From assembly GCA_035544955.1 (NCBI GenBank), contig DASZZN010000012.1, positions 1 to 64,000 on the forward strand: a DNA stretch of 64,000 bases, read 5' to 3'. Positions 28,167-39,696 of the stretch are shown in pieces (the first letter of the stretch is position 1; every line of letters begins with the position of its first letter). The translations under genes and the position numbers were made by a program. This DNA comes from Candidatus Dormiibacterota bacterium. GTDB lineage: Bacteria > Chloroflexota > Dormibacteria > CF-121. The notes under the pieces were generated by a model, which ran no database searches, had not been told where the DNA came from, and saw only the letters and a list, made by a program, of their open reading frames with translations.

Positions 28167-31100
28167 GTGATTCGACACCGCGTATCGCGACTTCGCAAGT
28201 TGAGTCTCACGGTCGGGCTGGCGGTGGCACTCCTACCGGCCGGGCTCCCGCCAATCAGCGGTTGGGCATCCCACGCGGCATCGGACGGGCCGGGAAATCT
28301 CTCGCACTTCGACCTGGCGAGGAAGGATTGCCTGGGCACCGCCCGGAACACCACGTCGAAGGTCTGGTTCACGGTCGCGAACGGTGTCCTGAGCGACGTC
28401 TATTTCCCGACCGCCGACAACACGAATGTCGAAACCCTCCAGCTCGTCGTGACGGACGGGCGCACCTTTACCGACCTGCAGACGCGCGACATGACCTACA
28501 CGGTGAAGGCGCCGGATGCGCGGTCGCTCGAATGCCAGGTGACCAGCACGGCAAAGAGCGGACGCTACCGGATCACGACCGACTATCTCACGGATCCCGC
28601 GCGGAACACGCTGCTGATGCGCATCATGTTCGAGCCGCAGGAGCGCGACAACGCAAACTACCACGTCTATCTTCGCTACGACCCGAGCATCAACGGCAAT
28701 GGCGGTGGCGGCTCGGGTAACGGCGGCGGTGACTCGGGCCTCATCGATACCTCGACCGGGCACGCAGTGCCGGTCGCCTTCGACACGAAGACCACGAGCC
28801 AGGCGGTGAACCGCACCTACGCGGTCCCGGTCTTCAGCGCGCTCGATGCCTCGCGTCCTTTCCGTCAGGTCAGCAGCGGCTTCGCTGGCGCCGCCAGCGA
28901 CGGTCTCACCCAGCTTGATGCGTCTCGCGCGCTGACTTCCACCAACGACACCGCGAGCAACGGCAACCTCGTCCAGACTGCGCAGCTCGACTTCGCGGAG
29001 GAGGGCGACCTCACCGTGGCGCTCGGCTTCGGCACGACCCAGGCGCAGGCGGTCGCGGCCGCCGCGGGCTCGCTGCACGCCGAGTTCGAGGACGTGCGGG
29101 GCTCTTTCCGGGCGGGCTGGCACGCGTACGACGCCTCGCTCATCAAGCCGCCTGCCCACATGGCCGGCCTGACGAGAAGCCAGTGGCGCCAGCTCGTGAA
29201 CGCGTACTACCTGAGCGCCAATGTCGTCAAGGCCAGCGAGGACAAGACCTTCCCCGGCGCGATCGTGGCCAGCCTGGCGTCCCCCTGGGGCCAGGCGATC
29301 TCGGCCGGCGATCCCAACAATCTCTACTTCGGCTCGTACCGCGAGGTCTTTGCGCGCGATCTCTACGAGGCCTGGACTGCGCTCATGGTGGATGGTGATG
29401 TGCAGACGGCACGCGCCGCAGCGCGGTTCCTCCTCGAGCGCCAGCAGCTCCCGGATGGGTCGATGCCGCGCAATAGCCTGCTCAACGGCAAGGTGGCGCC
29501 CGACTCCTTCAACACCCAGCTCGACGAAGTCAGCTACCCGATCGTCATGGCTTATCAGCTCGGCATGACCGACTCGGCCCTGTATCAGAACCACATCCGA
29601 TCGGCGATCGATTTCTTGATCGCGCACGGCCCGTCCTTCGGTCCCGAGCGCTGGGAAGAGCAGGGCGGCTTCTCGCCCTCCACGATCGCGGCCGAAGTCG
29701 CCGGGCTCGTGGCGGGCGCGACGATTGCCGATGCCAATGGCGATATCGCAACGGCGAATGTGGCGCGCGCTGTCGCCGACGACTGGCAGCGAAGCCTGCC
29801 GGGCTGGGCCGTCACGACCAACGGGCCGCTTGCGAGCCATCCGTACTACATCCGTCTCTCCAAGACAGGCGATCCCAACGCGGCGATCTCGTACAACGTT
29901 GGCAATGGCGGCCCGACGTTGGACCAGCGCTCGATCATCGACCAGGGGTTCCTGGAGATGGTGCGCCTCGGCCTGACTCCGGCCTCCGATCCGACGATCG
30001 CCCAGTCGCTCCCGGTCGTCGATGCGACCATCAAGGCCAACACGTCCACCGGCGCCGGCTTCCATCGCTACAACGGGGATGGCTATGGCGATGGCGCCAC
30101 CGATGGACACCCATGGGCACCGTCGGGCAAGGGCACCGGCCACCTGTGGCCCGCGCTCGCGGGTGAGCGGGGCGAGTACGAGCTCGCGACCGGCAATGCC
30201 GCCGCCGGGTGGCAGCGTCTGATCGCGATGCTGGGCGGCGCCTCCGGTCCGGGGTTGATCCCGGAGCAGGTCTGGGAGCTGCCCGACCTCGCCGCCTCAC
30301 CGTTCGGGACGGATCCCACCGTCGCGTCGATCGGGTTCCGTAACGGCGGGCCGGCAGGGTCGGCATCGCCGCTGACCTGGTCGGACGCGCAGTTCGTTCG
30401 CCTCATGCGCGATCTGAGTGCCGGCAAGGTGCTCGAGCAGCCGGCCGCCGTGGCGAGCCGCTATGTCGCGCATCGGCAGGGCCAGACCAGCCTGACCGTC
30501 ACCCAGCCGGCCGACAACAGCTCGGTCGCCGGGTCACCTGTCACGGTGGCCGGCACGTCGGTGCCGGGAAACACGATCTACGTCGCGGCGACGAACACCG
30601 ATAACAACAGTCAGACCACGACGGCGACGACGGTGGTTCAGCCCGACGGCAGCTTTAGCCTGAACGTGCCGGTCAGCGGCGGAACGACCGTCTTCAACAT
30701 CGTGGCGGTCAGCCCGTCGGGCGCGACCGCTCATGTCACCCGCAGCGTCGTCTTCGACTTCACGCCGGGAACGGTCCTCCTGGACGTCACTGACCCGACT
30801 GGCGACGACAACGGGCCCGGGAACTATGCGTATCCGACGGCCGGCGACTTCCATGCGGGCGCGTTCGACATCCAGGAGTTCCGCGTCATCGAAAGTCCGG
30901 ACGGCGCGACCAGCACCTTCAAGTTGAAAGTGCGCGACCTATCCCCAACGTTTGGCAGTCCGCTCGGCGCGCAACTGGTCGACGTCTACGTGCACGACCC
31001 AACTGCCGCCGCAGCGAACACGTCGACGGCCGCGTCGTTTCCCCAGCGCAACTACGCCATCGCGGCCGCCGCAGCCTGGAGCCGCCTTGTCGAGGTGCAG

Positions 31101-31484
31101 GGCTTCGGCCAGCGCTACATCGATGCGCAGGGCACCACGAAGGGAACGGTGACCATCAGCGCCAATGCGATCTCGCGCTTCATCACCTTCAGCGTGCCGA
31201 CCGCCAGCCTGGGCGGAGCGCCCGCGTCCGGCTGGGGATTCACGGTGGTCCTCACCGGCCAGGACGGCTTCAGCCCGGACCAGGCGCGCGGCTTCGCGCC
31301 GACGCCCCAGGCGTACCAGTTCGGCGTCTGCGCGACGGCGAGCGCCGACCCACACTGCACCTTCGATCCCAACAAGGTGCCGAAAGCGATGGACGTGCTC
31401 ACGCCGGCGGGCGTGCTGCAGTCAAACGAGCTCGATTACACGCTGCACAATCCGGTGACGCTGCAGGACGTCATCATTCCGTAG
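28167..31484 (+). CDS. secreted GH15 glucodextranase/glucoamylase, multidomain
   Basis: A 1105-residue secreted enzyme. A signal peptide (residues 1 to about 38) is followed by an N-terminal beta-sandwich (about 40-310), a GH15 (alpha/alpha)6 catalytic barrel (about 320-780), a short Ig-like domain C (about 785-865, TVTQPADNSSVAGSPVTV) and a C-terminal DOMON/CBM-like domain D (about 870-1095, beginning VTDPTGDDNGPGNYAYP). Catalytic region: YREVFARDLYEAW, WEEQGGFSPSTIAAEV with the general acid, and IPEQVWEL with the general base. This order is that of Arthrobacter glucodextranase. It releases glucose from alpha-1,6 or alpha-1,4 glucans outside the cell. No cell-wall anchor is evident. Confidence 0.9.
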   Translation: MIRHRVSRLRKLSLTVGLAVALLPAGLPPISGWASHAASDGPGNLSHFDLARKDCLGTARNTTSKVWFTVANGVLSDVYFPTADNTNVETLQLVVTDGRTFTDLQTRDMTYTVKAPDARSLECQVTSTAKSGRYRITTDYLTDPARNTLLMRIMFEPQERDNANYHVYLRYDPSINGNGGGGSGNGGGDSGLIDTSTGHAVPVAFDTKTTSQAVNRTYAVPVFSALDASRPFRQVSSGFAGAASDGLTQLDASRALTSTNDTASNGNLVQTAQLDFAEEGDLTVALGFGTTQAQAVAAAAGSLHAEFEDVRGSFRAGWHAYDASLIKPPAHMAGLTRSQWRQLVNAYYLSANVVKASEDKTFPGAIVASLASPWGQAISAGDPNNLYFGSYREVFARDLYEAWTALMVDGDVQTARAAARFLLERQQLPDGSMPRNSLLNGKVAPDSFNTQLDEVSYPIVMAYQLGMTDSALYQNHIRSAIDFLIAHGPSFGPERWEEQGGFSPSTIAAEVAGLVAGATIADANGDIATANVARAVADDWQRSLPGWAVTTNGPLASHPYYIRLSKTGDPNAAISYNVGNGGPTLDQRSIIDQGFLEMVRLGLTPASDPTIAQSLPVVDATIKANTSTGAGFHRYNGDGYGDGATDGHPWAPSGKGTGHLWPALAGERGEYELATGNAAAGWQRLIAMLGGASGPGLIPEQVWELPDLAASPFGTDPTVASIGFRNGGPAGSASPLTWSDAQFVRLMRDLSAGKVLEQPAAVASRYVAHRQGQTSLTVTQPADNSSVAGSPVTVAGTSVPGNTIYVAATNTDNNSQTTTATTVVQPDGSFSLNVPVSGGTTVFNIVAVSPSGATAHVTRSVVFDFTPGTVLLDVTDPTGDDNGPGNYAYPTAGDFHAGAFDIQEFRVIESPDGATSTFKLKVRDLSPTFGSPLGAQLVDVYVHDPTAAAANTSTAASFPQRNYAIAAAAAWSRLVEVQGFGQRYIDAQGTTKGTVTISANAISRFITFSVPTASLGGAPASGWGFTVVLTGQDGFSPDQARGFAPTPQAYQFGVCATASADPHCTFDPNKVPKAMDVLTPAGVLQSNELDYTLHNPVTLQDVIIP

Positions 31485-31514
31485 TCTTGACATTACGCGC
31501 CTGCGGCGGGAAAT

Positions 31515-31884
31515 GAGCGCCAAGACCCGGAGCAGCGGCGGACTACCACCCGGGCGTCGCGCGGATCCTCGACGATGTCCACCTGGAAGGACGGATGGGG
31601 AAATTCGTTGTCGAGTCAGACGAGCCGCTCGCGCGCGGCGGCACCGAGAAGGGCCCTTCGCCGCTGCAGTACGTGATGATGGGTACCGAGAAATACGATG
31701 TCGACGACGCCCCGCCTATTTCGAAGAGGTGACGATCGAGCTGTCCGTCGTCAGCAGCGCACCGATCGCCAGCGTTCGAAAACTGGTCACCCATGCGGAG
31801 CGCGCCTGCCACGCGGCGCAGTCCTTGGCCCATGCGGTTCCGGTGCGCCTGACCGCCACGCTGAACCAGGAACCGCTCGCCTAA
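31515..31884 (+). pseudogene. OsmC-family peroxidase remnant (internal deletion and frameshift)
   Basis: The first part reads GVARILDDVHLEGRMGKFVV, then EPLARGGTEKGPSPLQYVMMG, the N-terminal half of an OsmC-like protein. The expected 35-40 residues with the first redox cysteine are missing; sequence continues directly at EKYDVDDAP and shifts frame at about 31716. The other frame completes the fold (FEEVTIELSVVSSAPIASV, then the HAERACHAAQSL helix with the second Cys) and stops at 31884. One frame ends in TGA at 31730. Both a deletion and a frameshift make function unlikely. Confidence 0.75.
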
Positions 31885-31981: not shown

Positions 31982-31987
31982 TAGTAT
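31982..31987 (+). promoter_or_regulatory. -10 element, leaderless start of the winged-helix gene
   Basis: TAGTAT lies six bases before the ATG at 31994, so the mRNA is probably leaderless. The element and spacing match those before the SDR gene at 21440. Confidence 0.45.
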
Positions 31988-31993
31988 CGGGCC

Positions 31994-32563
31994 ATGGCCC
32001 GCGTCAGCATGCCCAGCCAGCGGATGACGGAGCTCTACCTGATCCAGGGCGAGGTGCCCGACACCAGAGACCTCGACGATGCACGCCAGTGGATCACGAT
32101 CTACCGCGAGCTGGTCACCTTCGCCGACCGGACCTTGAACCGGCTGCGGCGAGAAGCGGGTGGCAACGGTCAGACCGACAGGTCATGGGCCAGCGACGCG
32201 GACGAGCGCGGGATGGAAGGGCACCTGCGGCGCTTGCAGTCGCGGCTCGATTTCTGGGAGCGGCGCTTGTGGGATCTGGCCGGCCTCGACCTCGACATTC
32301 GGCGGCGCGTGCTCACCTATGCGGGGCGGCGGCTTACGCTGACCCGTCGCGAGGCGCAATTGCTTTCCTTCCTGGCGCGGCGGCCCGGTCAGTTCTTCTC
32401 GGCGGCCCAACTGGTGAGCCTTGCCTGGGCGGCGCCCGCGCTTTCCGCCGAACAACTTCGCACCTACGTCGTGCGCCTGCGACGCCACCTGGCGACCACG
32501 GGGATCCCGGCCCGGCTGGTCAGCGAACCGCGCCGTGGCTACGGGATGGTATTCACCGCGTGA
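31994..32563 (+). CDS. receiver-less OmpR-type winged-helix protein
   Basis: A 189-residue protein. The C-terminal half (about residues 108-188) is a Trans_reg_C domain: LTYAGRRLTLTRREAQLLSF, AAQLVSLAWAAPALSAEQLR, TYVVRLRRHL and SEPRRGYGMVF. The N-terminal half has no phospho-acceptor receiver domain; it is a charged helical segment (REAGG, then MEGHLRRLQSRLDFWERRLWDLAGLDL) that may form a coiled coil. A DNA-binding regulator coupled to an unknown signal. Its TGA overlaps the GTG of the next gene. Confidence 0.78.
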   Translation: MARVSMPSQRMTELYLIQGEVPDTRDLDDARQWITIYRELVTFADRTLNRLRREAGGNGQTDRSWASDADERGMEGHLRRLQSRLDFWERRLWDLAGLDLDIRRRVLTYAGRRLTLTRREAQLLSFLARRPGQFFSAAQLVSLAWAAPALSAEQLRTYVVRLRRHLATTGIPARLVSEPRRGYGMVFTA

Positions 32564-32949
32564 GCGCCTCGCTGCCACAACGTAACAAGGTCCTCCGACT
32601 TCGACCCCAGCGCCCGGCAGCCGACGAGCCGGCGTCCCAGGTGGCCATCACGGTCCGCTCCCACCTCTCACTCTTGCAGGGATATGCCGACATCATGGAG
32701 GGCCTGTCGCCCCAGCTGAAGAAAGAGATCCTCCAGGTGATGGCTGAAAAAATCCGGGAGCTCGGTTCAGCGCTGCAGCCATTCGTGGAGCAAACGCCAG
32801 CGGCACGACCGGCGATCGGCGACTACCGTCGCGTGCGGGAACGCACTCGCCACCTGATGACGGAGTATCGCCTCTTGCTGGAGCGCCTACACGAGCGCGT
32901 GTCGGAAGCGCATGAGCATGTCAACGGCGCCGGGGAAACACTCAGCTAA
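32560..32949 (+). CDS. small dimerisation-domain-like protein (HisKA-like, no ATPase)
   Basis: A 129-residue helical protein. The segment AITVRSHLSLLQGYADIMEG with the following helix PQLKKEILQVMAEKIREL looks like a histidine-kinase DHp hairpin. No HATPase domain follows; the tail ends after an E/R-rich helix (TEYRLLLERLHERVSEAHEHV). Start GTG 32560 is the GTGA overlap with the winged-helix gene, so the two are translated together. The DHp likeness is from pattern only. Confidence 0.55.
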   Translation: MSASLPQRNKVLRLRPQRPAADEPASQVAITVRSHLSLLQGYADIMEGLSPQLKKEILQVMAEKIRELGSALQPFVEQTPAARPAIGDYRRVRERTRHLMTEYRLLLERLHERVSEAHEHVNGAGETLS

Positions 32950-32960
32950 CTGCTGAAGCC

Positions 32961-34649
32961 GTGACTGTCGTCGAGTTGCGGGTGCTCGACGGACCCAACC
33001 TCTACTTCACGCGGCCCGCGATCAAGCTTACGCTGGGCGTCGCCCCCTGGCTCGCCCTCCCGGACGGACGGGCCGAGCGGCTCACGAGGCAGGCCGGCTT
33101 CACGCCGGTCGCCACCGCGGGCGCGCCGAATAGCGATCAGCGACGCCGCTACGTCGCCCGCTTCGCGGTGCACGTCGCGCGTCTCCTGGCTGACGCCACC
33201 GCCACGCATCTCGCGATTCGGGGCCGGCCTGGTCCGGACGCCGAGCAGATCGTCGTCGCCTTTGTGTGGCGGCGGCAGCGAGCCGCGGAAGCGTTCGCGC
33301 GCGAGCTCGCCCCGCTGCTCGAGCTATGCCTGGACGGTCGACGATCGCTGGAGCGGGCTATCGCTGCGGCCGCCAATCGGCTCGAGAGGATGGAGCCCGG
33401 GCCGGCGCCGACTGTGCTGCGCCCCAGCATCCCGATCATCGCGGTGACGGGAACCAACGGCAAGACCACCACGGTGCGGTTGATTGCGCAGCTGGCGCGG
33501 GCGGCCGGGCACACGGTCGCCTACACGACGACCGACGGGGTCTATCGCGATGACGAGCTGGTGGAGGCAGGCGACTACTCCGGGTTCAGTGGGGCGGCCA
33601 AGGCGCTGGCGCAACCCGGTATCGACCTCGCGGTGCTGGAGACGGCGCGTGGCGGGATCCTGCTGCGGGGGATGGGCACCGACCACAACGACGTGGCGGT
33701 GGTGACCAACGTGACCGAGGACCACCTCGATCAATACGGGATCCGCACGCTCGACCAGCTGGCGGAAGTCAAGGCCAGTATCACCCGGATCACGAGGCCG
33801 CAGGGCTGGGACGTGCTCAACGCCGACGATCCGAGGGTGCTGGCGATGCGGCGCTTGGCGTCGGGCCAGCCCTGGCTCTTCTCGCTGGACGCGGACCACC
33901 CGGCGATCCGCACGACACTGGCCGAGGGTGGACGGGCGATCTCGGTTCTCGACGGCGCCCTGGTGGTCATGACATCTCGCCGGCATACCCATCGGCTGCT
34001 CCCGGTCGAGGATGTGCCGGTCACACTGGCCGGCATCTCCAGCCACAACCTCAGCAACGCGATGGCTGCGGCGGCCGCCGCGCTCGGTGCCGGGATCCCC
34101 GAGGGAGCCGTCGTCGAGGGGCTTCGCTCCTTCGTGCTGGACGCCGAGCGCAATCCGGGCCGAGCCAATATCTTCGAGGTGGATGGCCGCGTGGTCGTCG
34201 TCGATTACGCCCATAACGAAGATGGCATGCGCGGCTTGATCGAGATCGGCCAGGGGCTGCGAGCGCCGGCTGCCGGCATCTTTCTGGCGTTTGGCTCGGC
34301 CGGCGACCGGACCAACGCCATCCTCCACCGACTCGGATACACCGCGGCGCGTGGCCCCGACCGGGTCGCGATCGCCCAGCTTCATCGGTACCTGCGTGGC
34401 CGCGATCCGCAGGACCTGGTAAATCGGCTGCAGGCGGGACTTGCGGACGGCGGGAAGCCGGAGGCGCCCGTTTTTCCGAACGAGCTCGAGGCGCTCGAGT
34501 GGATGTTGGAGGCGTCGGCACCCAACGATGTGATTGCGATCACGGCGCTCGGGCAACGCCCCGAGATCTTCCAGGACCTGCGCGACCGGGGCGGGGCGCC
34601 GGTCGGGCCGCTCCGCATCCGGGAACTGGTGCGGCGAGCGCGGAGTTAG
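32961..34649 (+). CDS. Mur ligase-type protein, CphA-like without ATP-grasp
   Basis: A 562-residue protein. Residues 1-130 resemble the N-terminal domain of cyanophycin synthetase (opening ELRVLDGPNLYFTRPAIKL, compare ILESQVLRGPNFW in the adjacent CphA). The next part is a full Mur ligase module: P-loop VTGTNGKTTTVRLIA (about residue 160), TARGGILLRGMG, NVTEDHLDQYG, and a C-terminal domain with VVVDYAHNEDGM. The ATP-grasp module that CphA carries between these two parts is missing. It may add an amino acid to an existing peptide chain with ATP. Start GTG 32961; stop overlaps the stop of cphA on the opposite strand (TTAG). Confidence 0.82.
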   Translation: MTVVELRVLDGPNLYFTRPAIKLTLGVAPWLALPDGRAERLTRQAGFTPVATAGAPNSDQRRRYVARFAVHVARLLADATATHLAIRGRPGPDAEQIVVAFVWRRQRAAEAFARELAPLLELCLDGRRSLERAIAAAANRLERMEPGPAPTVLRPSIPIIAVTGTNGKTTTVRLIAQLARAAGHTVAYTTTDGVYRDDELVEAGDYSGFSGAAKALAQPGIDLAVLETARGGILLRGMGTDHNDVAVVTNVTEDHLDQYGIRTLDQLAEVKASITRITRPQGWDVLNADDPRVLAMRRLASGQPWLFSLDADHPAIRTTLAEGGRAISVLDGALVVMTSRRHTHRLLPVEDVPVTLAGISSHNLSNAMAAAAAALGAGIPEGAVVEGLRSFVLDAERNPGRANIFEVDGRVVVVDYAHNEDGMRGLIEIGQGLRAPAAGIFLAFGSAGDRTNAILHRLGYTAARGPDRVAIAQLHRYLRGRDPQDLVNRLQAGLADGGKPEAPVFPNELEALEWMLEASAPNDVIAITALGQRPEIFQDLRDRGGAPVGPLRIRELVRRARS

Positions 34650-37405
34650 GTCCCGGGCGAGACGGGCAGCGCCCGGCGTGCCTCCAGGTTGCGCCAGGTG
34701 TCGGCGGGCTTGTCGACGCAGAGCAGGACGACATCGCCGGCAGTGGCGCGACTGAGGGCGGCGTCGATGGCCGGCCCTTCGTCGATGATGATCTCTGCGC
34801 TCTGCACGCGGCTCTCCGCGGCCGCTTTGATGCCCTCCATCACATGGCCGGCGATCTCGCCGCGCTTCCGGCCGCGCGGGTTCGCGTCTTCGCGCACGAT
34901 CAGGATGTCGAAGACGCGCGCCGCCACCCGCCCGAGCTCGCGCATGTCCTCGTCCCGGCGATCACCCGGGGTTGCGATCACGGCGATGCGGCGACCCGGC
35001 TCGGGTCCATTGACGCCGGGCGCCGTCAGGCGCTCCACGAAGTCGCCGGCCAGCGCGAGGCCATGCGGGTTGTGGGCGTAGTCGACGATCACCTTCACAC
35101 CGTGCAGCTCGAACATGTTGAGGCGTCCGGGCGCTTCGTGGAAGGACGGATGGAAGCTGCGCAGCCCCTGCCGGATGTCGTGAAGGTGGGCGCCGGCGGC
35201 GTGGGCCGCCGCCGCGGCGGCCAGCGCATTCTGGACGTTCGCCCGCGCCCGACCCTCGAAGGTGGCCGGGATCAGGTGGATCCAGGCGATCTGCGTTGTG
35301 CGCCGGCCCTCGCGCAGCACCATCATCTCGCCGCCGCCCGGCTGCCTCTCGATGACGAAGGCTTTGCGGCCGCGGCGCACCCAGCGACCCACCAGCTCGT
35401 TGTCGTCTTGCATCGAGAAGAGGATCACCGACCCGCTGCAGTGGGTCCGCATCTCGGCCACCAGCTCGTCATCGGCGTTGAGGACGGCGGTGCCGCCACG
35501 GGGGACGGCCTCGACGACCACGCGCTTGATCGCGGCCAGCTGCCGCAGGGAGTTGACCTCTTTCAGGCCGAGATGGTCGCCGGTGACATTGAGCACGACT
35601 CCGACATCGTTCGCGCTGTAGCCCAGGCCCTCCCGCAAGATCCCGCCGCGGGCGACCTCGAAGACCGCAAAGTCGACACGGGGATTCTGGAGCACCATGC
35701 GGGCGGAGCGCGGGCCGCTGGCGTCCGCCTGCTTGACGAGCCGGCCGTCGATATAGATGCCGTCGGTGGTCGTCATCCCGACCTTGTGGCCGAGGCCCCT
35801 GACGATGTGGGCGATCATGCGCGCGGTGGTGGTCTTCCCGTTCGATCCGGTGACGGCGACGATCGGGATGCGCGAGGGCGTTCCCTGCGGAAAGAGCAGA
35901 TCGATGACGGCCTTCGCCACATACTGCGGCTCGCCCTCGGTGGGGTGGGTATGCATCCGAAAGCCCGGGGCGGCGTTCACCTCGACGATCGCTCCGCCGG
36001 TCTCCCGAACCGGCTGGGAGATGTCGGGCGTGAGGAAGTCGATGCCCGCCACGTCGAGACCAACCACGCGCGCCGCCTCTTCCGCGATCTCGACGTTGTC
36101 GTGGTCGGCCTCCATGGTGCGGTCGATCGAGATGCCTCCGGTCGACATGTTGGCGGTGTCCGCCAGCTTGACGACGGCGTCCTTGGGAGGAATCTCGTCT
36201 AGGCCGAATCCCTGCCGTTTGACCAGCTCGTCAGCGGCGTCATCGATCTTGATCCGGGTCAGCACCTTTTCGTGGCCGATGCCGCGCCTCGGATCGCGGT
36301 TCGTGATGTCGACCAGCTCGCGCACCGTGTGCTCGCCGTCGCCGATGACGTGCGCCGGGACCCGCTCCGCGACCGCGACCATGTGGCCGTCGATGACGAG
36401 CACGCGATAGTCGTTACCCTTGATGAAGCTCTCCACCACGACAACACCGCTGCGCGTCTGGCTGATGGCCCGCTCATAGCCGCGCCGGACGTCTTCCTCG
36501 GTGCGCACGTCGAGGCTGACGCCGCGCCCGTGGTTCCCGTCTAGCGGCTTCAACACAACCGGGTAGCCGATGCGGGCGGCGACCGCGGCGGCCTCGTCCG
36601 CCGATTGGACGGTATCGCCTCGCGGCACCGGCAGCCCGGCAGAAGCGAGCAAGGACGTGGTCAGCTTCTTGTCGCCCGCGATGTCCACGCCCAAGGCCGA
36701 GGTGCGGGAGGTCATGGTGGCGCGGATCCGCTGCTGGTACTTGCCCTGTCCGAGCTGGACAAAGGATTGCTCATTCAGCCGGATGTAGGGAATGTCCCGG
36801 CGGGCGGCTTCGTCGAGAATCGCCTGGGTCGAGGGGCCGAAGGCCGCTTTGTCGGCCAGCAGCACCAGGCTTTCCAACTCCGCGACGAAGTCGAAGGTGG
36901 GGTTGGCCTGCACCAGGTGATTGAGTAGACGGACGGCGAGCTTCCCGGCCGCCAGCCCGACCTGTTCCTCGTTGTAGCCGTAGACCACGTTGTAGTAGCC
37001 GGGCGTTCCGGCCCGCCGGGTCTTGCCTCGCGTCGTGGTCCCGCCGGTTTCGCGCTGGAGTTCGAGTGCGACGTGCTCGGCGACGTGGCCCATCCAGGTC
37101 CCGTCGCGCAGCCGCTCGATGAAGCCGCCCGGGCGATGGAGCGAGCAGCCATGATCCTGCAGACCCGGCAGCAGGTCGATCAGCGCATCGTTGAAGGCGG
37201 GAATCGTGTTGGAGGGCCAGTGCTCGAGCGAGCCGAGGTCGACCAGCAGGCGGATCGCCGGGTCGTACGACCAGAAGTTAGGGCCACGAAGGACCTGGCT
37301 TTCGAGGATCTTGAGGTCGGGCTTTAGCGGTGGTTTGTTCTCGACAGGCTCGTGCTTGGCGTCCTCGTCGCGCTCGACTCGCGTGTCCATGCGCGACTCG
37401 CTCAC
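34646..37405 (-). CDS. cphA: cyanophycin synthetase
   Basis: A 919-residue two-headed synthetase. N-terminal domain (to about residue 215), ATP-grasp module (about 216-500; GYPVVLKPLDGNHGRGVSL, VVESFIKGNDYRVLVIDG), then a Mur-ligase module (about 500-890) with VTGSNGKTTTARMIA and NVTGDHLGLKEV. It polymerises Asp backbones with Arg side chains (multi-L-arginyl-poly-L-aspartate) as an intracellular nitrogen store. A charged 28-residue N-terminal extension precedes the family start. GTG at 37405 shares GTGA with the cphB stop. Faces the Mur ligase paralogue tail to tail. Confidence 0.92.
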   Translation of the reverse strand: MSESRMDTRVERDEDAKHEPVENKPPLKPDLKILESQVLRGPNFWSYDPAIRLLVDLGSLEHWPSNTIPAFNDALIDLLPGLQDHGCSLHRPGGFIERLRDGTWMGHVAEHVALELQRETGGTTTRGKTRRAGTPGYYNVVYGYNEEQVGLAAGKLAVRLLNHLVQANPTFDFVAELESLVLLADKAAFGPSTQAILDEAARRDIPYIRLNEQSFVQLGQGKYQQRIRATMTSRTSALGVDIAGDKKLTTSLLASAGLPVPRGDTVQSADEAAAVAARIGYPVVLKPLDGNHGRGVSLDVRTEEDVRRGYERAISQTRSGVVVVESFIKGNDYRVLVIDGHMVAVAERVPAHVIGDGEHTVRELVDITNRDPRRGIGHEKVLTRIKIDDAADELVKRQGFGLDEIPPKDAVVKLADTANMSTGGISIDRTMEADHDNVEIAEEAARVVGLDVAGIDFLTPDISQPVRETGGAIVEVNAAPGFRMHTHPTEGEPQYVAKAVIDLLFPQGTPSRIPIVAVTGSNGKTTTARMIAHIVRGLGHKVGMTTTDGIYIDGRLVKQADASGPRSARMVLQNPRVDFAVFEVARGGILREGLGYSANDVGVVLNVTGDHLGLKEVNSLRQLAAIKRVVVEAVPRGGTAVLNADDELVAEMRTHCSGSVILFSMQDDNELVGRWVRRGRKAFVIERQPGGGEMMVLREGRRTTQIAWIHLIPATFEGRARANVQNALAAAAAAHAAGAHLHDIRQGLRSFHPSFHEAPGRLNMFELHGVKVIVDYAHNPHGLALAGDFVERLTAPGVNGPEPGRRIAVIATPGDRRDEDMRELGRVAARVFDILIVREDANPRGRKRGEIAGHVMEGIKAAAESRVQSAEIIIDEGPAIDAALSRATAGDVVLLCVDKPADTWRNLEARRALPVSPGT

Positions 37406-38334
37406 TCCGAGGCCTTTCGATCCTCGAGACGGCGCACCATCTTCCGAACGCGGCCCTGCGCCAGCTGGGCGAGGTGCTCGTTCTTGGCGACGACCAGGGG
37501 CAGGACGCGGCGCGCGCGCAGGTCGAATCGATAACCGGAGGGTAGGGAGTGGAGGCGCGCGTTCGATACCATCATCGGCTTGTGACCGGTCGTCTGGAAG
37601 GCGTCGGTGATCACATCGGTGCCGTCGACGATCGTCACCGAGCCGCGGCCGATCACTTCGAGCACGTCGTTCGCGTCGATGATGGCGGCGGTGTCCTCAT
37701 CGAGGCCCAGCCCGATCAGCGAAGGCGACTGCGCGACCACGGCGAGCAGCCGGCCGAGCCGTGTGCGCTGCTCGAAATGCTGATCGACCACGACGTTGAC
37801 GACCAGCCCCAGGCCGACCGAGACGTTCGCCATCCGGTATTTCGGGGTGGCGCCCGAGCTGCCGAAGGCCATCATGTGGGTCGCCACCGCGCTCGCGCCC
37901 GCGGATGTCCCGGCCACCACGACCCCACGGCCGTGGGCGTCGAGAATGGCGGCGCCGAGCTTGGTTCCGCCGATCACGGAGGAGAGTCGCAGCTGATTAC
38001 CGCCGGTCATGAAAATACCGGTGACGGCCTTGAGCGCCTCGACCATCCGCGGATCGTTGGCCTCTTCGCGAGTTTCCGGACGGAGGCCCGTGACTTTGCC
38101 CACACCGACCCGGGCGAAGATCTGGCCATACAGTTCGGTCGCCGCGTCGCCGAGGGAGGAGGCGGTACTGATCACCGCGATGCGGGCATGATCGCCGCCG
38201 GCAAGCTGGACGAAGCGCGACAGGATGACCCGCTCACCCAGCTTGTCCTCGGCGCCGCCGATGACCATGACCGGCCCGACCGGGCCTCCGTCAGTGGTGG
38301 GAGCAAGCCGCTGCGGCGTCGAGGCGTCCGTCAC
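37402..38334 (-). CDS. cphB: cyanophycinase
   Basis: A 310-residue serine-type exopeptidase of family S51. GTSAGASA (about residue 140) is the nucleophile elbow, GGNQLRLSSVI and GLGLDEDTAAII are the other conserved stretches, and DQHFEQRTRLGRL is typical of CphB. No signal peptide, so intracellular. It degrades cyanophycin to beta-Asp-Arg dipeptides. First gene of the cphB-cphA operon. Confidence 0.92.
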   Translation of the reverse strand: MTDASTPQRLAPTTDGGPVGPVMVIGGAEDKLGERVILSRFVQLAGGDHARIAVISTASSLGDAATELYGQIFARVGVGKVTGLRPETREEANDPRMVEALKAVTGIFMTGGNQLRLSSVIGGTKLGAAILDAHGRGVVVAGTSAGASAVATHMMAFGSSGATPKYRMANVSVGLGLVVNVVVDQHFEQRTRLGRLLAVVAQSPSLIGLGLDEDTAAIIDANDVLEVIGRGSVTIVDGTDVITDAFQTTGHKPMMVSNARLHSLPSGYRFDLRARRVLPLVVAKNEHLAQLAQGRVRKMVRRLEDRKASE

Positions 38335-38496
38335 TCACGACAGTGTACTGGCGGTCGAATTCCCGCGCTTCGGTATTCTTGCAGAATCTTATATGATTGA
38401 TGTCACATCCTCCGACAGCCAGCAGTGGCGTCCGGCTTCCATAACCCCCGACCTTGATCGCGCACCTATATGAAAAGATTAGAATAGCGATATCAG

Positions 38497-39696
38497 GTGT
38501 TGAATACAACGATTCACCCAGACGCAGCTCCCGCGGAGCGCCCCATTCCCACCCGGGGAAAGGTACGCCCGGCGAACGGGTTGCTGCCCCGTGTGCTGGA
38601 CGTGTTGCCGGTCGGGATAGCGCTGTTCGAGCTGGAGGCCGACGGGTTCAGGTTCCGTTACGGCAACCAGGTGTTCGCCCGGGTGCTGGGTCTCGACCAA
38701 ATGCCGGATGAGGGGCAGCTGGTCGGTGAGGTTTTCAATCGGGCGGAGCATGACGCCGTCATCGAGCTCTTCAGGCTCGTGCGTGTCAGCCGCGAACCGC
38801 AGAGCTACTTCACCTCGGAGGGCGGGCAAGGCCCCAGCACCAGCCGGATCCTGAACATCGATGCCTATCCGCTGCTGAAGGTCGGTCGCGTGAGCCATGT
38901 CCTGGTCCTAGCCGCGCAGACGCAAGAAAAATTGGAGGCTCGACGCCGGCAAGAACTCGAAGCCAACCGGCTGCGTAAGAAGGCGGACCAGCTCGCCAGT
39001 TTGGAAAAGGCGAAGTCGGAATTCTTACGGCTGGCGTCACACGAGCTCCGCGGACCGGCGGCCACGCTGGGCGGTTACCTCTCGATGATCGAAGACGAAT
39101 CGTTGGGGCCGGTCCCACAGCGGTTGCGTCCTGTATTGCCGATGCTGAAAGCGAAAGCCGCCCAGATCAACCTCCTCGCCAACGAGATGGTGGAGGCCGC
39201 GCGGCTCGAAGACGGACGGGTGCAGCTGAAGCGCAAGCGCGTCGATCTGAGCCAGATCGTCCGTCGAAGTGTTGTCACTGCGGAAACGACGGCCACGGCG
39301 CGGCATCGCGTCCGCTTTGACGACCGCGTCGGCGGTGAGCTATGGGTGCTCGGTGACGTTTTGCGGCTCGAGATCATCATCGCCAACCTGCTGGACAACG
39401 CCATCAAGTACTCGCCGAATGGAGGCGATGTCACGGCGAAACTGTCCACCTCCAGCGACGTCGCCATGCTGAGCGTCCGAGACCAGGGCATCGGGATCGC
39501 CGCTCAGGACATGGATCGGCTCTTCGTGCGCTTCAGCCGGCTGGCTCCCCTCAACGACGTGCCCGGCACCGGGCTGGGCCTGTACCTGGCGAGAGAGCTG
39601 GCCCGCCTGCACAAGGGTGAAATCGTGTGCGTGTCGAAACTCGGTGAGGGGAGCGAGTTCGTGCTGAGTCTCCCGGTTGAATCCGCCGGCAAGTAA
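38497..39696 (+). CDS. PAS-domain sensor histidine kinase
   Basis: A 399-residue soluble kinase. An N-terminal PAS-like domain (about residues 30-145, GLLPRVLDVLPVGIALFELE) is joined by a coiled coil (KLEARRRQELEANRLRKKADQL) to HisKA (SEFLRLASHELRGPAATLGG, His about residue 183) and HATPase_c with N box NLLDNAIKYSPNG, G1 DQGIGIA and G2 GTGLGLYLA. No transmembrane segments. No response regulator is adjacent; the receiver-less winged-helix protein and DHp-like protein lie beyond cphAB. A TAGAAT -10 candidate is at 38480-38485. Divergent from cphB, so a role in cyanophycin control is possible but unproved. Confidence 0.88.
   Translation: MLNTTIHPDAAPAERPIPTRGKVRPANGLLPRVLDVLPVGIALFELEADGFRFRYGNQVFARVLGLDQMPDEGQLVGEVFNRAEHDAVIELFRLVRVSREPQSYFTSEGGQGPSTSRILNIDAYPLLKVGRVSHVLVLAAQTQEKLEARRRQELEANRLRKKADQLASLEKAKSEFLRLASHELRGPAATLGGYLSMIEDESLGPVPQRLRPVLPMLKAKAAQINLLANEMVEAARLEDGRVQLKRKRVDLSQIVRRSVVTAETTATARHRVRFDDRVGGELWVLGDVLRLEIIIANLLDNAIKYSPNGGDVTAKLSTSSDVAMLSVRDQGIGIAAQDMDRLFVRFSRLAPLNDVPGTGLGLYLARELARLHKGEIVCVSKLGEGSEFVLSLPVESAGK

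Follow-up and report, generated by a model that had tools for sequence, protein, structure and literature searches.

Cyanophycin is a nitrogen-storage polymer whose synthesis is described as a one-enzyme process. Here we describe a cyanophycin locus in 64,000 nucleotides of a Candidatus Dormiibacterota bacterium of the Chloroflexota (GenBank assembly GCA_035544955.1, contig DASZZN010000012.1, positions 1 to 64,000; this whole stretch is called the window), in which the genes for cyanophycin synthetase and cyanophycinase converge on a gene for a second, shorter Mur-ligase protein that we call Mur2 (Table 1). The window cphA encodes a full CphA1 (TIGR02068, 1172 bits against a cut-off of 850) with PF18921, ATP-grasp and Mur domains, and cphB encodes a cyanophycinase (TIGR02069, 245 bits, above the curated cut-off). 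The tetranucleotide TTAG at 34646-34649 holds both the TAG stop of Mur2 and the minus-strand TAA stop of cphA, and the two small genes ahead of Mur2 overlap by 4 bases (GTGA). These open reading frames, the overlap and the interlocking stops had all been named in an earlier prediction made from the DNA letters (the original prediction), and each was confirmed at its position; long opposite-strand frames, such as 33324-34556 on the minus strand, were set aside as GC-rich shadow frames. The stop-codon interlock is a local detail: in relatives, the gap between Mur2 and cphA varies from 0-40 bp up to several kb. The gene order of the Mur2 locus, which the original prediction had proposed comparing among related genomes, and its sequence are conserved across dozens of genomes, more than chance allows.

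Table 1. Genes of the cyanophycin locus in the window
Feature	Coordinates	Strand	Remarks
Winged-helix (Trans_reg_C) regulator without receiver	31994..32563	+	189 amino acids; clade-specific accessory gene
DHp/HisKA-like helical protein	32560..32949	+	129 amino acids, GTG start; without ATPase domain, without phospho-acceptor His; clade-specific accessory gene
Mur2	32961..34649	+	562 amino acids; CphA-type N domain (~1-128), complete Mur module (~155-541), no ATP-grasp
cphA1, full cyanophycin synthetase	34646..37405	-	919 amino acids; N with Cx19HxxEH, ATP-grasp G, Mur M
cphB, cyanophycinase (S51)	37402..38334	-	4-base overlap with cphA start
PAS-HisKA-HATPase histidine kinase	38497..39696	+	divergent from cphB

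Mur2 belongs to the Mur ligase superfamily, scoring 88.7 bits with PF08245 and 44.8 bits with PF02875, both over their cut-offs. TIGR02068 matches it over the M part only (residues 155-528 against model positions 477-847), and the 365 bits of this match fall short of the 850-bit cut-off, so that Mur2 is not a CphA1 with the N, G and M domains together; domain profile searches of the protein found no ATP-grasp G domain. Neither is it an orthologue of MurE, as TIGR01085 gives 110 bits against a cut-off of 257, and it is 39 % identical to the CphA of the same genome compared with 31 % to its next best Mur relative. Pfam found nothing in residues 1-150. A profile built from 13 diverse Mur2 N-termini was matched by hhalign to CphA N domains over its whole length (95.3 %, E 2e-8), and the common start of the N domain reads ESQVLRGPNFWSYDPAIRL in CphA and ELRVLDGPNLYFTRPAIKL in Mur2. 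The structural comparison suggested with the original prediction points the same way. In an AlphaFold2 model (predicted local distance difference test, pLDDT, 90; predicted template modelling score, pTM, 0.87), Mur2 has as its best Foldseek match in the PDB the full-length synthetase SuCphA1 (7LG5; E 5e-37, query TM 0.79), in an alignment of 881 columns that runs over N and M and leaves the G domain as one gap; the TM of the same model against MurE is about 0.54. Because the M module alone makes up ~0.73 of the chain, a TM of 0.79 suggests that the N domain is part of the match to SuCphA1. The original prediction had described a Mur protein that keeps the CphA N-terminal domain and the whole Mur module and lacks ATP-grasp, and the profile alignment, the model and TIGR02068 bear this out.

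The N domain of Mur2 nevertheless differs from that of CphA1 in one functional element. In SuCphA1, the Cx19HxxEH metallopeptidase site makes primers (PMC9262961). This site, which we take as a common rather than universal CphA1 trait, is kept in 52 of 53 CphA1 scored, mostly from loci of this study, whereas HxxEH is found in no Mur2 sequence. The mean net charge of the domain is -3.4 in CphA and +4.9 in Mur2, with wide scatter. Two Mur2 proteins of Intrasporangiaceae (L036:7968-10196 and L031:8001-10211) carry in addition a C-terminal tetratricopeptide domain (TPR_5, 87-103 bits).

The M module retains the complete catalytic set. In SuCphA1 numbering, K499, E558, R561, D585, H586, K602, D745, H748, N749, D776 and R777 are invariant across the aligned Mur2 sequences; the M-site P-loop, E558, D585/H586 and K602 are kept in 43 of 43, and the chain-side pocket residues D536, G539 and R561 are conserved. 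K499 is required in TeCphA1 (PMC9427784), and D585A/H586A is the published M-inactivating mutant of SuCphA1 (PMC9262961). Around this core lie changes that are fixed or nearly fixed within Mur2: S542 becomes G, and position 567 R or K, in all 43 sequences; R at position 566 is mostly replaced by L; and E607, which touches bound cyanophycin in the SuCphA1 complex (PMC9262961), is R or K in 41 of 43. The lid motif is [YF]-hydrophobic-RGR (YLRGR type) in 53 of 56 Mur2 and ED..RGR in 54 of 63 CphA. We read this pattern as an enzyme in which catalysis is likely retained and the substrate altered, and the fixed charge reversal and the lid change provide specific residues to probe by mutation.

A truncated or decaying copy of cphA is ruled out by the conservation of 43 aligned sequences with motifs of their own. 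In a tree built from M domains with a mixture model, one branch, with support 96/99, lies between 22 Mur2 and 26 CphA, the latter from cyanobacteria, Acinetobacter, Tatumella, Rhizobium, Sphingobium, Deinococcus, Chryseobacterium, Actinomycetota and Chloroflexota (six phyla). Two further trees agree that CphA forms one clade; the MurE outgroup is long, and the placement of the proteobacterial Mur2 and those of one Chloroflexota family (f23) relative to the root is uncertain. Distances among Mur2 and among CphA mirror each other across 34 genomes (Mantel r 0.93, permutation p 1e-4). The separating branch and the agreement of the distances together suggest an old paralogue that was inherited with CphA1, rather than a recent truncation. 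As judged from these trees, the Mur2 family is an old sister to the M domains of all CphA1 sampled. A Mur family unrelated to CphA is ruled out by the trees and by the scores (365 against 110 bits; 39 % against 31 %); Mur2 falls beside CphA and not among the peptidoglycan Mur ligases, so that the separate placement named as refuting the original prediction did not occur. That view, an ATP-grasp-less second CphA, stands as to homology with CphA and not with any other Mur family, but has to be amended in that Mur2 is an old separate paralogue with its own motifs and not a truncated CphA. A tentative suggestion is that CphA1 may have descended from an N-M ligase of the Mur2 kind that acquired ATP-grasp.

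Several other CphA relatives of unusual form were encountered. The ‘Mur ligase family proteins’ on Deinococcus plasmids proved to be long CphA variants and not Mur2; on the plasmid of Deinococcus sp. KNUC1210 a further, diverged cphA (L155:2735-5234), which a frameshift seems to have split, lies beside an intact cphA, an isoaspartyl peptidase gene and a cyanophycinase gene. A Legionella adelaidensis plasmid (NZ_LR134428.1, L153:3323-5191) encodes a 622-residue protein with an intact CphA N domain (PF18921, HxxEH), an M domain and only a remnant of G, adjoining a cyanophycinase and an isoaspartyl peptidase; since it branches with Chryseobacterium and cyanobacterial CphA, it would have lost ATP-grasp independently. 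Genome G1049 has, in a frame of 941-1020 amino acids (L144:4146-5267), a divergent CphA-like M domain that forms a long branch at the base of CphA and lacks the usual N-domain motif.

The distribution of Mur2 was followed in about 1,200 genomes of Chloroflexota and Actinomycetota, plus plasmids. The large searches scored only the 2-3 best candidates per genome, so that absences are slightly less certain than presences. Among these genomes, none has Mur2 without a CphA sequence; the tie to cphA claimed in the original prediction therefore holds, and the other outcome that it had named as refuting did not occur either. In the window's own genome and 100 relatives, the same 17 of 101 carry both Mur2 and a CphA sequence, 84 carry neither and none carries one alone. 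The order that includes Segeticoccus (297 genomes) has 19 genomes with a CphA1 over the cut-off, all 19 with Mur2 and all in convergent orientation; nine other genomes match by ATP-grasp only. Across 397 Actinomycetota, Mur2 or CphA genes occur in 24 genomes, and Mur2 stands alongside essentially every full CphA1. Genomes with a single hit were G412, where the CphA1 match is incomplete, G106, where CphA is cut by a contig end (L022), and G111, whose Mur2 is frameshifted (L032); such cases are at least partly explained by broken contigs or a frameshifted copy. Among 400 Chloroflexota, Mur2 is present in about 36 of 48 CphA genomes (about three quarters) and alone in none. In the 29 Mur2 loci obtained from one genome scan, the gene converges on cphA in most of those long enough to tell. 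Plasmids of Shinella zoogloeoides, Roseateles and Ruegeria carry cphB-cphA-mur2 in one direction, and their Mur2 copies are named ‘Mur ligase family protein’ in RefSeq. Micrococcales loci are flanked by serB, glgA, glgC and fabI, apparently an inherited context.

Compared with CphA1 (TIGR02068; SuCphA1 7LG5, TeCphA1 7WAC), Mur2 shares the arrangement of N and M, the invariant M active site and the same genomes, but it has neither ATP-grasp nor Cx19HxxEH, differs in the lid motif, has the charge reversed at E607 and 567, and occupies its own side of the tree. The cyanobacterial CphA2, which repolymerises beta-Asp-Arg (PMC9427784), is likewise a paralogue of CphA in which only one of the two synthetic activities survives, yet it is the mirror image of Mur2: CphA2 keeps G and has lost the M site, including its P-loop (PMC9427784), whereas Mur2 keeps M and has no G. 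The distinction drawn in the original prediction between a free Mur half and the known CphA2 variants is thus a sound one. MurE and other Mur ligases (and CapB, MurT and FPGS) share the fold and the mechanism class; Mur2 is clearly closer to CphA, with a CphA-type N-terminal domain in place of the UDP-MurNAc-binding kind. A Chloroflexota genome (G1008) with cphA1, cphB and Mur2 (L145) also encodes four tandem CphA2-like proteins of ~670-704 amino acids (L146:87-8254), which are 33-37 % identical to the window CphA and each comprise N, G and part of M.

Farmer et al. 2023 (PMC10687191) reported two cphA copies in Tetrasphaera metagenome-assembled genomes, the shorter one with lower expression, clustered with cphB, serB, glgA and glgC. 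The organisms are of the same family (Intrasporangiaceae/Dermatophilaceae) and the serB, glgA and glgC neighbours are those of Micrococcales Mur2, so that the short copy is probably Mur2, although it was reported as a second cphA and its domain content, N-M architecture and wider distribution were not recognised (PMC10687191). The genes counted by Sharon and Schmeing 2023 (PMC10206079) appear to be limited to cphA1, cyanophycinase and isoaspartyl dipeptidases. In open-access papers we found no account of a free Mur protein accompanying CphA, the subscription literature lying outside the search. Taken at the level of sequence and predicted structure, Mur2 is a real, widespread and unnamed family of putative N-M ligases tied to CphA1, its mechanism class being well supported.

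We propose, and consider fairly probable, that Mur2 is an amide ligase devoted to cyanophycin metabolism, driven by ATP and acting in trans beside CphA1. As in the M domain of CphA1, a carboxylate would be phosphorylated with ATP and then joined to an amine; the likeliest candidate is the beta-carboxylate of an Asp residue, either in the chain or in a short precursor. The degenerate N domain would serve as a docking surface and not as a peptidase that makes primers. Given that Mur2 departs from CphA1 in its lid and in the charges on the polymer side, its substrate probably does not match that of the CphA1 M domain exactly: the amine may be different (a non-Arg side chain, or a cap), or the chain may not yet carry Arg, as in the fill-in or editing of bare Asp residues. 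More tentatively, and with less probability than the general ligase role, Mur2 might add to the Asp chain a building block that is not Arg, or a terminal cap; if so, cyanophycin in Actinomycetota, Chloroflexota and some Proteobacteria would be a polymer chemically unlike the textbook (beta-Asp-Arg)n. Several observations weigh against our proposal. CphA1 occurs without Mur2 in several Chloroflexota families (the genomes of f15 and single members of f47 and f53), so that cyanophycin as such does not require Mur2; in the f23 family Mur2 is unlinked to cphA; no gene neighbouring the Mur2 loci points to a second amine; and the step from charge changes to a changed substrate is a weak one. Of the original prediction, the homology of Mur2 to CphA, the lack of ATP-grasp and the tie to cphA are upheld; the control that it proposed is not, as discussed below.

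Other roles would account for part of the same evidence. The complete catalytic set, the conserved chain-side pocket and the close kinship with the CphA1 M domain would all be expected of a redundant second arginylating module that adds Arg to Asp side chains in trans, for more capacity or for the repair of skipped residues; we find this rather doubtful, since the split is old and the lid and the polymer-side charges show systematic differences, conserved within Mur2, that simple redundancy would not be expected to maintain. Alternatively, Mur2 could make starters from free Asp and Arg, or from short peptides, given that CphA1 needs at least a (beta-Asp-Arg)-Asp primer (PMC9262961) and that small substrates could be within reach of a free M module. 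This is unlikely: with Cx19HxxEH in nearly all CphA1 examined, there is no obvious need for another protein to make primers, and the backbone bond of the minimal primer is beyond M alone.

The retention of a degenerate N domain, the tetratricopeptide domain of the Intrasporangiaceae proteins and a convergent orientation that could couple expression might instead indicate a non-ligase regulator or scaffold, a pseudo-enzyme binding cyanophycin or CphA1, but the catalytic residues are invariant in 43 Mur2, unlike in CphA2 with its lost M-site P-loop (PMC9427784), which makes this quite improbable. Least credible of all is a ligase of another pathway (peptidoglycan or poly-gamma-glutamate) whose position near cphA would be due to chance or vertical descent. 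Such an origin would fit the Mur-ligase fold and the unlinked f23 genes, and is opposed by the co-occurrence with CphA across two phyla and in plasmid gene clusters, by the higher identity to CphA, and by the failure to find, among the sampled genomes, any with Mur2 and no CphA.

If Mur2 is the amide ligase we propose, its presence predicts an extra step in synthesis or a modified polymer. This unstudied putative ligase accompanies CphA1 in Actinomycetota and a large part of Chloroflexota, relatives of phosphorus-removing wastewater bacteria among them, which is relevant wherever an actinobacterial cphA is expressed alone or cyanophycin is measured in sludge.

The original prediction placed the locus under a split two-component module formed by the winged-helix and DHp-like genes, and this part does not stand. 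The phospho-acceptor His expected of a histidine kinase or phosphotransferase is missing from the DHp-like protein and replaced by I, L, R or K in 10 of 10 orthologues, and no receiver is present; a split phosphorelay is ruled out on both counts. Mur2 and cphA also occur together elsewhere without the pair, which was found in 12 of 29 loci, all in a part of the window's Chloroflexota clade; the loci without it include three Chloroflexota (L024, L029 and L030, the last with little upstream sequence). The DHp-like protein is related to HisKA: within the genome it most resembles a histidine kinase, over the HisKA segment (E 7e-5). An hhalign comparison of its alignment with the HisKA domain of the neighbouring kinase was not significant. 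Its model is helical and of low confidence (pLDDT 69), with no significant Foldseek matches. Without an acceptor His the protein cannot take phosphate in the usual way, and we regard the pair as a likely local transcription regulator. The PAS histidine kinase beyond cphB looks ordinary; it is conserved in the window's Chloroflexota clade and not in distant Mur2 loci. Elsewhere in the same genome (contig C34, L159:1465-1713), a free HisKA-like frame of 82 amino acids keeps the acceptor His (GHDLRTPL) and has no ATPase domain.

Just upstream of the cyanophycin locus, the window encodes a glucodextranase-type GH15 enzyme of 1105 amino acids (28167-31484). Between the two, a short frame at 31513-31884 has a weak OsmC match (E 1e-4, under the cut-off) and is perhaps a broken OsmC/Ohr-type gene.

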